Shown here one piece after another: positions 35,014 to 40,735 of a stretch of 64,000 bases of DNA. The translations under genes were made by a program, and so were the position numbers. How positions within the stretch are numbered: the stretch's first letter is position 1; each line of letters opens with the position of its first letter. Under the pieces are notes generated by a model. That model did not search any database, had not been told where the DNA came from, and worked only from the letters and a program-made list of their open reading frames with translations. Source of the stretch: Aerophototrophica crusticola (GTDB lineage: Bacteria > Pseudomonadota > Alphaproteobacteria > Azospirillales > Azospirillaceae); contig MOEB01000002.1 in assembly GCA_001939945.1 (NCBI GenBank), forward strand, positions 62,001 through 126,000. The letters run 5' to 3'.

Positions 35014-36279
35014 TCACACCAACAGGTGCTCCGTCGCCTGGGCGCGCATGCAGTGGTCGCTGCCCATGGCGCTGGCATAGCCGCCGGCGTTCAGCAGGGC
35101 CAGGTAGTCGCCCTCCTGCATCACGGGCAGGGCAACGTTCTCCGCCCAGAGGTCCAGCGCCTCGTTGATGTTGCCGGCGATGGTCACCGTCTGTAGCGCC
35201 TCGGGCGCCCAGGCCGCTGCCGGATCGGCATGAAGGCTGGCCGGCACGGGCTCGCAGGGCAGCTTGTAGAACACCGGCTCGATGGCCAGGTTGAATCCGC
35301 CATCCACGCCGACGAAGGTGGTGTTGCGCTTCCGCTCCACCGTGTTGGCCTGGAGCACCAGCACGCCCGCGTCCTTCACGACAAAATCGCCGGGCTCCAC
35401 CCAGACCTCCACGCCACGGCCGGCGAAGCTCTCACCGATGATGCCGGCCCAGCGCGCCAGGTCCAGCGGCCGGTCGCTGGCCACGTGGGGCACGCCCAGG
35501 CCGCCGCCCAGATTCACCACCTTGGGCGACTCCAGCCGGTCCAGGAACCACAGGCATTCCCGCACGACCTGCGCCCAGGCGTCCAACTGGTTGTTCAGGT
35601 AGCCGCAGCCCACATGGAAATGGATGCCTTCCACCTTCAGGCCCAGGTCCCGGGCCAGGGCCAGGGTCTCCTCGAACTGCTCCCGGTAGATGCCGAACTT
35701 GCTGGTCCGCTCCCCGCTGTAGCGCAGCAGCTGGTTCTCCCCATAGCCCACGCCCATGGCCGGGTTCACCCGGATGCCGATGGACCGGCCTGGCGCCACC
35801 TTGGCGAGGCGCCGCAGGGATGACTGGCTGTCCACGTTGATCCAGGCGCCGGGATGCCGCGCCAGCACGCCCAAGTCCGCTTCTGAGACCGAGGTGGCGG
35901 TGTAGGAGATGTCCTCTGCCCGGAAGCCGCAGCGGATGGCGTGGCGCAGCTCCCCGGGGGAGCAGGCGTCGATCCCGCACAGGCCCGACGTCTTCATCCA
36001 GGTCAGCAGCGGCCCGTACCGGTTGGCCTTCATGGCATAGCGGATGCGGGTGGTCAGGCCCGTCGTGTCCAGGGCCGCGCGCAGCCGCCGCAGGTTCGCC
36101 AGCACCCGTTCGCCGGAATAGAAGAAGGCGGGCCCGCCCGCCGCCCGCGCCGCCTCTGCCAGGTTCACCCCCGCCAGGCACAGGTCGCGGCCCACATAGC
36201 GCAGGTCCGGTCGCTCCCACCAGAAGCGGGGCAGGGCAACGGCGTCGGCCTGGGGGGCCGCCAGGGCGTCGGGGGGCAT
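35014..36279 (-). CDS. Type III (alanine racemase fold) PLP-dependent decarboxylase-like protein
   Basis: This 421-residue enzyme resembles diaminopimelate decarboxylase. PLP Lys84 sits in RIRYAMKANRYGPLL. Gly-rich and phosphate-binding segments appear as EGIHFHVGCGY and VVNLGGGLGVP. Two signature regions differ: the usual EPGR is EPGDFVVKDAGVLV, and the Cys-Glu-Ser active-site loop is replaced by IAGNINEALDLWAENV. The N-terminus carries WWERPDLRYVGRDLCLAG, as in some homologues of unknown substrate. So it is probably not a standard LysA; it may decarboxylate another diamino acid or a modified amino acid. The SET-domain gene ends 22 bases upstream on the same strand, forming a likely operon. 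Confidence 0.82.
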   Translation of the reverse strand: MPPDALAAPQADAVALPRFWWERPDLRYVGRDLCLAGVNLAEAARAAGGPAFFYSGERVLANLRRLRAALDTTGLTTRIRYAMKANRYGPLLTWMKTSGLCGIDACSPGELRHAIRCGFRAEDISYTATSVSEADLGVLARHPGAWINVDSQSSLRRLAKVAPGRSIGIRVNPAMGVGYGENQLLRYSGERTSKFGIYREQFEETLALARDLGLKVEGIHFHVGCGYLNNQLDAWAQVVRECLWFLDRLESPKVVNLGGGLGVPHVASDRPLDLARWAGIIGESFAGRGVEVWVEPGDFVVKDAGVLVLQANTVERKRNTTFVGVDGGFNLAIEPVFYKLPCEPVPASLHADPAAAWAPEALQTVTIAGNINEALDLWAENVALPVMQEGDYLALLNAGGYASAMGSDHCMRAQATEHLLV

Positions 36280-36301
36280 CGTCAGTCCTGAATCCTGAGT
36301 G

Positions 36302-36841
36302 TCATTCCGCCAGGCTGGGCATGCGGGCGGGCTCCCGCCGGCCGCTGATCCATTTCCGGCAGTTCGGGGCGCCGCACAGGCAGGGGAACTGCTTGAACAG
36401 CACGTCCTCCGTGCTGGCGTAATCCATGGTCAGTGCCTCACCGGCCCTGATGTCCTTCACGGCCCACAGTTCGAACCGCTGCATGTCCAGGAAGGTGTTG
36501 GGGTCGCAGGAATGCAGCAGGTAGCCGGTGAAGTAGGGGTCGTACAGGTGGCTGTCCGGACCGATCTGCAGCGTGTGCTGCATCACTTCATGCACCACGG
36601 TGCCGCTGATCTTGCAGATACGGTAGCCGCGGGCGAAGTCCCGGCGGGCATAGACGCCATAGCCCTTGGCATCGTTGTGGGTCGAGACCTCGAACTCCGC
36701 CGCGGTGGGATATCCGTCGCCGACACGGAAAATCTCTGGATACAGGCTCTCCGCCGGGCGAGGCAGGGAGTTGGGCAGGGTCAGGCTGGCAGCGAAGGGG
36801 GATGACAGTTGCGGCACCCGCCGCGTTCGGGGAACGGTCAT
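36302..36841 (-). CDS. SET-domain protein (predicted lysine methyltransferase)
   Basis: This 179-residue protein has the SET fold: GYGVYARRDFARGYRICKIS near the start of the domain, YLLHSCDPNTFLDM (the NHS-type motif) and EALTMDYASTEDVLF. A post-SET CLCGAPNCRKWISG with three Cys can bind zinc. SET enzymes transfer methyl groups from S-adenosylmethionine to lysine. Bacterial examples are uncommon and their targets are mostly unknown. It is placed just before the PLP decarboxylase-like gene. The ATG at 36839-36841 was chosen over one 45 bases upstream; neither has a clear ribosome site. The SET-PLP pairing suggests methylation of a ligand or protein linked to that enzyme, but this is inference. 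Confidence 0.85.
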   Translation of the reverse strand: MTVPRTRRVPQLSSPFAASLTLPNSLPRPAESLYPEIFRVGDGYPTAAEFEVSTHNDAKGYGVYARRDFARGYRICKISGTVVHEVMQHTLQIGPDSHLYDPYFTGYLLHSCDPNTFLDMQRFELWAVKDIRAGEALTMDYASTEDVLFKQFPCLCGAPNCRKWISGRREPARMPSLAE

Positions 36842-37079: not shown

Positions 37080-38339
37080 ATGGACTTCGCCTACACCGAC
37101 AAGGTCGTCGCCCTGCAGGACCGGCTCAACCGCTTCATGGAGCGGCACATCTACCCGAACGAGGCGGCGCTGAACGCGGAGGTCGCGGCCGGCGACACCC
37201 GTTGGAAGCCCGTGGCCCTGCTGGAGGAGCTGAAGGCCAAGGCCAGGGCGGAGGGCCTGTGGAACCTGTTCCTGCCGGAAAGCGAGCTGGGTGCCGGCCT
37301 GACCAACGCCGAGTACGCGCCCCTTTGCGAGATCATGGGGCGCAGCCATTGGGCGCCGGAGGTGTTCAACTGCTCCGCCCCCGATACCGGCAACATGGAG
37401 GTGCTGGTCCGCTATGGCACGGCGGAGCACAAGAAGCGGTGGCTGGAGCCACTGCTGGCCGGGGAAATCCGCAGCGCCTTCGCCATGACGGAGCCTGAGG
37501 TCGCCAGCTCCGACGCCACCAACATCGCCACGGAGATCCGGCGCGACGGCGATTCCTACATCATCAATGGCCGGAAATGGTGGACCAGCGGGGCCAACGA
37601 CACCCGCTGCAAGATCATGATCGTCATGGGCAAGACGGACCCGCACGGGACCGACCGGCACACCCAGCAGTCCATGATCCTGGTCCCCACCGACACGCCC
37701 GGCGTCACCATCCAGCGCTTCCTACCGGTCTTCGGCTTCGATGACGCGCCGCATGGCCATGCGGAGGTCACCTTCGACAATGTCCGGGTCCCGGTGGAGA
37801 ACATCCTGCTGGGCGAGGGGCGCGGGTTCGAGATCGCGCAAGGCCGCCTGGGGCCCGGCCGCATCCACCACTGCATGCGCCTGATCGGCGCGGCGGAGCG
37901 GGCGTTGGAGCTGATGTGCCGCCGCCTGATGACCCGCACCGCCTTCGGCAAGCCGGTGGCCGCCCAGACCATCTGGCATGAGCGGATCGCCGAGTCCCGC
38001 ATCCTGATCGACCAGGCGCGGCTGCTGACCCTGAAGGCCGCCTCCATGATGGACACGGTGGGCAACAAGGTGGCCCGCACCGAGATCGCGATGATCAAGG
38101 TCGTCGCCCCCAACATGGCCTGCCAGGTGATCGACTGGGCCATCCAGGCCTTCGGCGGCGCCGGTGTCAGCAGCGATTACCCGCTGGCCTGGATGTACGC
38201 CAACGCCCGCACCCTGCGCCTGGCCGACGGCCCGGACGAGGTGCACCGCAACCAGATCGCCAAGTGGGAACTGGGCAAGTACGACCCGCGCCAGCCTAGC
38301 CTCACCGGTGGCGACGCCTCGGTGAAGCCGCGGGCGTGA
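37080..38339 (+). CDS. Acyl-CoA dehydrogenase (ACAD10/11-like)
   Basis: This 419-residue enzyme has [20 protein letters not shown] (flavin-binding region), [20 protein letters not shown] and [20 protein letters not shown]. The catalytic base lies in the final third, near [19 protein letters not shown]. It fits the group of acyl-CoA dehydrogenases similar to ACAD10/11. These take longer or hydroxylated acyl-CoA substrates, so the exact substrate is not certain. It catalyses alpha,beta-dehydrogenation with FAD. It has its own promoter region with a PsrA-like operator, consistent with fatty-acid control, and a GC hairpin follows. Confidence 0.92.
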
Positions 38340-39196: not shown

Positions 39197-39541
39197 GTGC
39201 GCCCTCCCTTCGGCCGGCCACGCGGCCCTGACATCCCAACAATCGGTGACCCGGCCCGGGAACATCGCCGGGCGAGTCGTCACGCCCTCTGCCTTGGGTG
39301 ATAATTTTGTTTCGGCTGAAACGGTAGCGGCTTTGGACAGTGCGGGTCGGGAGGCTCCGCGGAAGGGCGTGATTGCTTTTTTCCCGGCCCCCTTTCCAAG
39401 CCCTTGGCCCACCGGCATAAACCGGGAAAAGACTGGGGGAGGGGACGCGGGACGGCCACCGGGGGGAGGCCGTCCCTAAGCCCGCCAGGGGTCATCCCAG
39501 GACCCCCTGTGACCACGCCAGAGACGTGCGGGAAGCCGGCC
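39197..39541 (+). promoter_or_regulatory. Long structured leader/promoter region before ornithine-type decarboxylase
   Basis: This 345-base region has no convincing gene. It has an AT-rich patch (about 39299-39312), a strong stem GGGACGGCC/GGCCGTCCC (39449-39476) and a longer-range pairing TTTTCCCGG (39379-39387) with CCGGGAAAA (39422-39430). A conserved speF leader RNA is known upstream of ornithine decarboxylase genes in alphaproteobacteria. This region is the right place and size for one, but I could not match the consensus by eye. Confidence 0.45.
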
Positions 39542-40735
39542 ATGATCCAGACCTTCGCCGATGCCGCCGCCATGGTAGCAGCCCTGAAACCGGAAGAGCC
39601 GGTCTATTGCTACCGCCCGCATGAGCTGACCCGCCGTGCCCGCGCCTTCGTGGACAGCTTCCCGGGTGAGGTGCTGTACGCCGTCAAATGCAACCCGGAA
39701 CCCCTGGTCGTCCGCGCCCTGTGGGAGGGCGGCATCCGCCACTTCGACACCGCGAGCCTGCCGGAGATCGCGGAAGTCCGCGCCCTCTACCCCGAGGCCG
39801 GCTGCTATTACATGCACCCGGTGAAGAGCCGGGAATCGATCCGCGCCGCCTATGACCAGCACGGCATCCGCCACTACGTGGTGGACCACCCGGACGAGTT
39901 GGAGAAGCTGTCCGACTGCACCGGCCGCGCTGGGGACGTGGTGGTGATGGTGCGCCTCGCCACCGCCCGCGGCGCCGCCGTCTATGATTTGGGCGGGAAG
40001 TTCGGTTGCACGGTGGAGCAGGGGGCCGCCCTGCTGTCCGCCGCCAAGGACCGGGGCCTGCGGGCCGGCGTCTGCTTCCATGTGGGCAGCCAGTGCCTGA
40101 CCCCCACCAGCTACCTGGCCGCCCTGAAGCTGGTGCGCCAGTGCCTGGATATGGCGGGGGTGGAGCCGGCGGTGATCGACGTGGGCGGCGGCTTCCCCAC
40201 GGAGTATGTCGGTTCCGACGCCCCGCCATTGGGCGACTTCATGGAGGCGATCCGCCAGGGGCTGAACGGCATCCGGCGCCCCGCCGACTGCTGCATCTGG
40301 TGCGAGCCCGGCCGGGGCATGGTGGCGTCCGGCGCCAGCCTGGTGGTGCGGGTGGAGATGCGCCGGGATGGCTTCCTGTACCTGAACGACGGGGTCTACG
40401 GCTCCCTCTGCGACCTGAAGTTCCCGGGCATCCACCTGCCCATGCGTGTGGTCCGGCCCGGCGGCCAGCCCAGCGCGGAGCTGGCCCCCTTCGGCCTGTT
40501 CGGCCCCACATGCGACTGCTACGACCAACTCCCCGGCCCCTACATGCTGCCGGCGGACGTGCGGGAGGGGGACTGGATCGAGATTGGCCAGGCCGGCGCC
40601 TACACCACCGCCACCCGCACCCGCTTCAACGGCTTCTTCGCCGGCCATGCGGTCATCGTGCAGGACGAGCCCTTCCTCCCCACCGCCCCCATGCGCCCCA
40701 ACGAGGCCGCCCGCCTAGCCGCGGCGGCGGAGTAG
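39542..40735 (+). CDS. Type III PLP-dependent ornithine/diamino-acid decarboxylase
   Basis: This 397-residue decarboxylase has PLP Lys49 in VLYAVKCNPEPLVV. It also has RLATARGAAVYDLGGKFGC, FHVGSQCLTPTSY, GGGFPTEY and EPGRGMVASGASLVV. A catalytic Cys (324) lies in GPTCDCYDQLPG. These match the alphaproteobacterial SpeF/ornithine decarboxylase group of fold type III, which may also act on lysine. It makes putrescine from ornithine in the cytoplasm. The ATG at 39542 follows a long leader. Together with the PLP protein at 35014 this gives two alanine-racemase-fold decarboxylase-like proteins within 6 kb. Confidence 0.88.
   Translation: MIQTFADAAAMVAALKPEEPVYCYRPHELTRRARAFVDSFPGEVLYAVKCNPEPLVVRALWEGGIRHFDTASLPEIAEVRALYPEAGCYYMHPVKSRESIRAAYDQHGIRHYVVDHPDELEKLSDCTGRAGDVVVMVRLATARGAAVYDLGGKFGCTVEQGAALLSAAKDRGLRAGVCFHVGSQCLTPTSYLAALKLVRQCLDMAGVEPAVIDVGGGFPTEYVGSDAPPLGDFMEAIRQGLNGIRRPADCCIWCEPGRGMVASGASLVVRVEMRRDGFLYLNDGVYGSLCDLKFPGIHLPMRVVRPGGQPSAELAPFGLFGPTCDCYDQLPGPYMLPADVREGDWIEIGQAGAYTTATRTRFNGFFAGHAVIVQDEPFLPTAPMRPNEAARLAAAAE

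Follow-up and report, generated by a model that had tools for sequence, protein, structure and literature searches.

The DNA analyzed here, a 64,000-nucleotide stretch of Aerophototrophica crusticola that we call the window, carries on its minus strand two co-directional genes encoding a SET-domain protein and a fold-III pyridoxal 5′-phosphate (PLP) decarboxylase. The assembly containing the window comprises 6.06 Mb in 328 contigs. The pair and its parts are located as follows (positions in the window).

36302..36841, minus strand: SET-domain protein, 179 amino acids (aa), a proposed BurB-type methionine S-methyltransferase (Pfam SET; Protein Data Bank (PDB) 9l4t, 76/139 residues identical)
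36359..36382, minus strand: post-SET cysteine motif, residues 154–161, C-L-C-x4-C (sequence; alignment A4)
36280..36301, minus strand: 22-nt intergenic gap; co-directional genes, operon-like (positions of the open reading frames (ORFs))
35014..36279, minus strand: fold-III PLP decarboxylase, 421 aa, a proposed S-methylmethionine decarboxylase (Pfam; below the NCBIfam lysA cut-off; clade with an MmtN-linked decarboxylase)
35386..35397, minus strand: EPGD, residues 295–298, where LysA has EPGR (sequence, alignments)
35152..35172, minus strand: NINEALD, residues 370–376, with Asn372 at the LysA loop-Cys position and Glu373 kept (sequence, alignments)

The original prediction had described a SET gene with a post-SET Cys motif 22 nt upstream of the decarboxylase gene, and both frames are open at these positions. 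The SET gene starts with an ATG at 36841, a longer version from 36886 being possible, and its post-SET Cys motif region reads CLCGAPNCRKW (residues 154–164). Pfam scores were 37.0 bits for SET, 116.9 bits for Orn_Arg_deC_N and 49.1 bits for Orn_DAP_Arg_deC.

The two enzymes and their closest relatives

Alignment of the decarboxylase with Escherichia coli LysA placed Asn372 at the loop Cys and Ala374 at the Ser, with Glu373 and the following Asp376 retained. The earlier statement that NINEALD replaces the Cys-Glu-Ser loop thus holds for the Cys and the Ser and is slightly too strong for the loop, as the Glu and the following Asp remain. The EPGR-to-EPGD change had been read correctly. According to a homology model of cyanobacterial LysA, as reported in part of that work, EPGR is positioned at the PLP phosphate, and binding of substrate and cofactor involves the Cys and Glu that the other subunit contributes from its loop (PMC12599289).

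The decarboxylase scored 218.3 bits against the NCBIfam lysA model (TIGR01048), below the cut-off of 297.9. Carboxynorspermidine decarboxylase (nspC, TIGR01047; 42.2 bits, cut-off 409.05) and D-ornithine/lysine decarboxylase (DokD, NF052544; 73 bits, cut-off 700) were rejected as identities because these scores fall far under the cut-offs.

Named genomes were scanned with a seven-sequence alignment. The best 80 of 348 confirmed relatives divide into 44 clade loci and 36 LysA-like loci, both groups being capped samples. A motif alignment then covered 46 clade members and 39 others, including the copies of the window's taxonomic family and three further decarboxylases of the window genome. The loop-Cys position is Asn in all 46 clade members and Cys in all 39 others, which makes the Asn-for-Cys change an easy marker of the clade. 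Among the 46 clade members, EPG is followed by Asp in 40, by Thr in four and by Val and Glu in one each; among the 39 others it is followed by Arg or Lys in 38 and by Thr in one. GNINE is intact in 45 of 46 members, the exception being GHINE in L086.

A quick maximum-likelihood tree was built from 79 rows, without bootstrap, and has some long branches among the LysA-like rows; in it, a branch with 99% support in the Shimodaira–Hasegawa-like approximate likelihood-ratio test (SH-aLRT) separates 45 clade rows from 34 LysA-like rows. The clade rows include L054, L065, L068 and L080; L059, L088, L093, L110, L116 and L121 were left out as near-duplicates, and L139 is tied to the clade through pairwise identity alone (47%). 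The window genome's own LysA-like gene (L012), which encodes EPGR and CES, is 30% identical to the decarboxylase and falls on the other side of this branch. Model scores keep the decarboxylase apart from LysA and carboxynorspermidine decarboxylase (218 versus 297.9 and 42 versus 409 bits), and the tree keeps it apart from the LysA-like rows, in line with the original prediction. A further fold-III PLP decarboxylase, with EPGR and GPTCD, is encoded on the plus strand at 39512–40735, about 2.7 kb from the SET gene.

The best match of the SET protein in a sequence search of the PDB was BurB (9l4t, E 1.2e-49), with 54–55% identity over the aligned residues; eukaryotic histone methyltransferases were far weaker, at E 3e-9 at best. 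Of the BurB residues named for 9l4t/9l4v, His72, Thr73, His93, Tyr124 and Val130 are conserved in the window protein. The equivalents of His72, His93 and Tyr124 are invariant across 15 SET proteins (alignment A4), as are the three Cys of the post-SET motif. BurB of Burkholderia thailandensis is reported to catalyze S-adenosylmethionine (SAM)-dependent S-methylation of free methionine, a reaction that yields S-methylmethionine (SMM) and begins the methylation route toward dimethylsulfoniopropionate (DMSP) (PMC12542666, PMC7496086); purified BurB produced SMM (PMC7496086). We propose that the window SET protein, a close relative of BurB by sequence, is likewise a methionine S-methyltransferase.

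Conservation of the pair and exchange of its methyltransferase

Within the window's family, SET matches at E 1e-8 or better occurred in 9 of 82 genomes, at ten places. All six strong matches, the window's included, are directly followed by the decarboxylase gene, and the other five decarboxylases are 71–78% identical to that of the window. Four weak matches, one being a second SET gene of the window's genome, have no decarboxylase downstream. That every strong family match has its decarboxylase, together with the clade-wide residue changes, takes the pairing beyond chance. Its low counts in wider samples make the pair rare there: at E 1e-15, 6 of 385 genomes of the class sample had a SET match, with a decarboxylase beside it in the window's genome only, and a decarboxylase search of the same sample found 1 of 385. 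SET matches turned up in 9 of the 398 genomes sampled from the phylum, and two of these, the window's genome and G694, have the pair; in the other seven no decarboxylase was found within 1.5 kb, nor in wider stretches for six of them. In the Caulobacteraceae, the family of G694, a BurB-like SET gene is present in 18 of 299 genomes, 15 of them with the decarboxylase (cut by a contig end in one).

Among the named genomes, the SET gene is adjacent or fused in 34 of the 44 clade loci (33 excluding L084, whose SET neighbor is weak at 28%) and was seen near none of the 36 LysA-like loci within the available flanks, some of which are short contigs of 3–4 kb (Fisher p 6e-14, relatedness ignored). L080, with its SET gene 5.1 kb off, counts as non-adjacent here and as one of the 36 SET-carrying loci considered below. 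Neighborhoods came from a simple custom gene caller that overcalled some starts and missed some genes; L045, L047, L048 and L049, which share contigs with L028, L031, L032 and L030, were examined through the latter four. The pair is present in Pseudomonadota, Myxococcota, Thermodesulfobacteriota and Chloroflexota, although single assignments outside Pseudomonadota may be wrong, as those cases are metagenome bins. The first suggestion of a specialized two-enzyme pathway on a methylated amino acid is in keeping with these results. Neither of the two outcomes named as refuting it was observed: the pair is conserved across genomes, and the decarboxylase does not group with LysA.

A SET–decarboxylase single ORF occurs in Novosphingobium mangrovi HK4-1 (553 aa) and in a Chloroflexaceae bin (587 aa). 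Since the two genes overlap by 4 nt in many relatives, one indel could mimic a fusion; two unrelated fusion-like cases make such an artefact less likely.

These observations bear on the simplest alternative, a divergent but ordinary LysA that lies by chance beside an unrelated SET protein methyltransferase. The best-scoring family is indeed NCBIfam lysA, and plasmid records call the relatives diaminopimelate decarboxylase and protein-lysine N-methyltransferase. The sub-threshold score, the distinct motif and clade, the genome's own LysA-like gene, the contrast in adjacency and the fusion-like ORFs all contradict this explanation, which we consider extremely improbable.

Nine clade loci have no SET gene, and some have another methyltransferase in its place. 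In L054, from the BD1-7 clade, the order is MmtN, aldehyde dehydrogenase, decarboxylase and aminotransferase. L075 (5177–7206), a Cloacimonetes bin, has an NNMT/PNMT/TEMT-family methyltransferase directly upstream of the decarboxylase; it might be a third methionine S-methyltransferase of independent origin. In L062 the decarboxylase is followed downstream by a class-III aminotransferase. For L052, L076, L077, L082, L083 and L086 no methyltransferase partner was seen in the part of the neighbors that was scanned. Acetyltransferase labels there were dropped, the L052 neighbor being a cupin by Pfam and the L082 and L083 N-terminal parts having no Pfam match.

Four plasmid matches were found at E 1e-60. 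The Rhizobium lusitanum plasmid encodes a 47% identical decarboxylase followed by an MmtN orthologue (PDB 7vvv, E 3.9e-105), ketol-acid reductoisomerase (KARI)-like and polyketide synthase (PKS) genes; in Eleftheria the decarboxylase lies beside a KARI-like gene within a megasynthase region. On the Rhodovulum plasmid an ORF continues from the decarboxylase into the start of MmtN-like sequence, and the Sphingomonas paeninsulae plasmid carries the SET–decarboxylase pair. PDB 7vvv is described as MmtN (PMC9135737); MmtN and BurB are reported to have no significant BLASTP similarity although their product is the same (PMC12542666). The strongest argument for SMM as the decarboxylase substrate is that a single decarboxylase clade has, as neighbors, two methionine S-methyltransferases that are unrelated to each other. 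The methylated lysine of the original prediction was set aside because the clade exchanges its SET partner for MmtN; with the likeness to BurB, this swap makes methionine very probably the methylated amino acid instead.

Some BurB-like SET genes stand without the decarboxylase. L036 (1495–13414) has one beside a 2591-aa nonribosomal peptide synthetase (NRPS)–PKS, a TauD dioxygenase and a GDSL lipase. The 19-kb stretch has no decarboxylase of the clade and may encode a further pathway that uses a sulfonium building block. In four genomes of one family (L037, L038, L039 and L041) an unpaired BurB-like SET gene sits in a conserved neighborhood with a carbonic anhydrase and a protein of 389–408 aa that had no Pfam match in the one case scanned. 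In one Azospirillum bin (L030, 3986–6991) a 1001-aa LRR-Roc-COR-TIR protein adjoins the pair.

Proposed pathway and a linked signalling module

Taken together, the pair very probably methylates methionine and then decarboxylates the product, which would cover two steps of the methylation pathway leading to DMSP. We infer both activities, the substrate, the end product and the role; the pathway is based on sequence homology and clade membership, on the conserved adjacency of the genes, on the two fusion-like ORFs and on partner swapping. The SET protein would transfer a methyl group from SAM to the sulfur of free L-methionine to give SMM, as BurB does. The decarboxylase would bind SMM on PLP (Lys84 by homology) and remove the carboxyl group to yield 3-dimethylsulfoniopropylamine (DMSP-amine). 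This amine would then be either oxidized to DMSP by general enzymes encoded elsewhere or be the final product; both outcomes are considered because no gene of the BurD or BurE kind lies beside the pair. DMSP is the likely end product and the amine could be one; in either case the product probably serves in stress or osmotic protection.

The described route in B. thailandensis provides the template. There, BurB and BurI make SMM and consume it toward DMSP (PMC7496086, PMC12542666), so the view that such a pair had no described function does not stand. As reported in PMC7496086, SMM accumulates in a burI knock-out, BurD and BurE complete the route, and burD or burE knock-outs still make the final product in reduced amounts, general enzymes elsewhere being proposed to oxidize the amine in these mutants. 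Two Thiorhodococcus genomes have decarboxylase, SET, class-III aminotransferase and aldehyde dehydrogenase genes contiguously, a full BurI-BurB-BurD-BurE-like set. Across the 36 SET-carrying loci, an aminotransferase that clusters with that of L054 lies near the pair in L065, L068, L069 and L080, and an aldehyde dehydrogenase in L065, L068 and L080. A search of the whole window genome found generic relatives only, aminotransferases at 29–39% and aldehyde dehydrogenases at 34–39%.

Several observations weigh against this assignment. Several of the residues named for BurB differ in the window SET protein: Arg42 is Lys59, Ala44 is Tyr61, Arg70 is Met87, Ser88 is Thr105, Met132 is Phe149, Arg133 is Lys150 and His138 is Leu155. 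The neighborhood of the window pair has no gene of the BurD/BurE clusters, and the window decarboxylase is tied to tested SMM decarboxylases through gene neighbors and not through direct alignment. In addition, 12 of the 13 non-window SET genomes of the class and phylum scans had no decarboxylase in the stretch examined, and 3 of the 18 Caulobacteraceae SET genomes have a BurB-like SET gene without it. SET genes without the decarboxylase are common enough in these samples that BurB-like SET proteins can have other partners.

The SET protein might instead methylate another thioether or amino acid, such as a lysine or ornithine side chain, with the decarboxylase acting on that product and not on SMM. 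The differing Met/SAM-binding residues and the unpaired BurB-like SET genes, including that beside the NRPS–PKS of L036, fit this idea and suggest that the SET group may be diverse. Methionine contacts in BurB are reported to be made by main chains (PMC12542666). Against the alternative stand the overall identity to BurB and the pairing of the same decarboxylase clade with MmtN, a sequence-unrelated methionine S-methyltransferase, which fits SMM; we judge another substrate to be improbable.

A still less probable reading is that the pair belongs to, or is left over from, a bur-type cluster for a cyclopropanol polyketide. In bur clusters, a KARI-like enzyme makes the cyclopropanol. Such a gene (by Pfam) lies by the decarboxylase in Aquabacterium, together with SET, aminotransferase and aldehyde dehydrogenase genes, and the Eleftheria and Rhizobium plasmids have KARI-like and megasynthase genes near the decarboxylase. 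However, no ORF in the whole window exceeds 1,064 aa and none within 28 kb of the pair exceeds 822 aa; the stretches of five family relatives have no gene above 1,069 aa, and the largest ones scanned are not megasynthases. The window and Aquabacterium decarboxylases also lie on different tree branches.

An ACAD11-type acyl-CoA dehydrogenase gene (37080–38339, plus strand) is divergent from the pair and adjoins it in two further family genomes. It was rejected as a DMSP-catabolic gene and excluded from the pathway, since a putative acyl-CoA dehydrogenase and ACAD11 proved to be its nearest relatives in the PDB and since the two genomes sharing its position also share other neighbors with the window or each other. 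A DmdC-like identity, considered for it in this context, was not adopted.

In 19 of the 36 SET-carrying loci, all from Alphaproteobacteria (sphingomonads, Caulobacteraceae and two of the window's genus), the pair lies near genes of a partner-switching module. Each of these loci has some of a SpoIIE phosphatase, a HAMP protein, a STAS protein, an RsbW-like ATPase and an MFS- or ATP-translocase-like protein with HEAT and cNMP-binding regions; one example is on a plasmid, and the module genes c3 and c7 had no Pfam match. The other 17 loci have no module gene nearby, and the module was found in none of the six SET-less decarboxylase loci compared (of nine). In the Caulobacteraceae, the HAMP gene, the single marker searched, is present in all 15 pair carriers versus 1 of 284 other genomes. 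That genome, G943, has the marker without the pair, yet its contig breaks off within the module, at the expected place of the pair, so it speaks neither for nor against co-occurrence.

Of the 82 genomes of the window's family, 3 encode the large membrane protein of the module, and all 3 are among the six pair carriers (p 2e-4, uncorrected). In the other three carriers (G043, G055 and G076) it was not found at E 1e-30. These carriers and the 17 loci without module genes indicate that the pair does not need the module. The co-occurrence must largely reflect physical linkage and shared descent. Two unlinked cases nevertheless suggest a functional tie: G1037 has SET, decarboxylase, STAS and RsbW-like genes on one contig and SpoIIE, MFS and HAMP genes on another, and the window's genome has the large membrane protein on contig C266 and the pair on C109.

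A doubtful but not negligible extension is that the alphaproteobacterial pair serves a dedicated stress-signalling system as its output, with DMSP-amine itself as the end product, a solute or signal, and not a step to DMSP. A membrane sensor set (the MFS/ATP-translocase-like, HAMP and SpoIIE/PP2C proteins) would then act through the RsbW-like kinase and its STAS antagonist to switch amine synthesis. A literature search found no such pair-linked module, which is weak evidence of novelty. The link to partner-switching genes offers testable regulation. The same kind of transporter-like protein adjoins a different SET protein in the window's genome (L042, 8546–14272; G000, contig C307). Downstream of this distant second SET gene (29% identical) come genes for an MFS-HEAT-cNMP protein, a CHASE4 histidine kinase and a response regulator.

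Significance and comparison with known systems

A few methyltransferase genes serve as the markers in surveys of DMSP producers. If the proposed pathway is correct, overlooked makers of sulfonium compounds would include sphingomonads, Phenylobacterium, Niveispirillum relatives, purple sulfur bacteria and some Myxococcota, Chloroflexota and Thermodesulfobacteriota, and such genes would be mislabelled as a protein methylase and a lysine enzyme. The product of the two steps would be a sulfur compound related to a well-known stress protectant. The records for L137 (6474–8212) carry the names 'SET domain-containing protein-lysine N-methyltransferase' and 'diaminopimelate decarboxylase', misleading if the SMM assignment is right.

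Published statements, as far as the portions consulted go, place BurB only in some Burkholderia (PMC9135737) or call it exclusive to B. thailandensis and of minor environmental weight (PMC13360808, 2026); a Streptomyces mobaraensis enzyme is called a BurB homologue (PMC12542666), at 35% identity (PMC7496086). No wider BurB distribution was found in our literature search, where most subscription journals were missing. The novelty lies not in the type of enzyme, which is known, but in the free-standing arrangement of the pair and how widely it occurs, the Asn motif, the fusion-like ORFs and the module.

The decarboxylase shares with LysA (TIGR01048) the Pfam domains, the PLP lysine (YAMKAN), the glycine-rich loop and the Glu of the Cys-Glu-Ser loop, but differs in EPGD, in Asn for Cys, in scoring under the curated cut-off and in lying across the 99% branch. 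Unlike the bur (malleicyprol) cluster, the window pair has neither adjoining BurD/BurE-type genes nor a megasynthase-sized ORF in the window. MmtN (PDB 7vvv) is reported to catalyze the reaction proposed here for the SET protein (PMC9135737) and its gene accompanies decarboxylases of the same clade in other bacteria, yet it is an unrelated class I methyltransferase and not the window's enzyme.

BurB (9l4t/9l4v) has the same SET fold with a C-terminal Cys motif, some common active-site residues and the genetic pairing with a PLP decarboxylase; it differs in lying within an NRPS–PKS cluster with BurD and BurE, and its Arg42, Arg133 and His138 are Lys, Lys and Leu in the window protein. Like BurI and the S. 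mobaraensis SMM decarboxylase (PMC7496086, PMC12542666), the window decarboxylase is a PLP enzyme paired with a (here proposed) methionine S-methyltransferase; although it stands outside any NRPS cluster, its clade includes decarboxylases beside MmtN and in bur-like gene sets.

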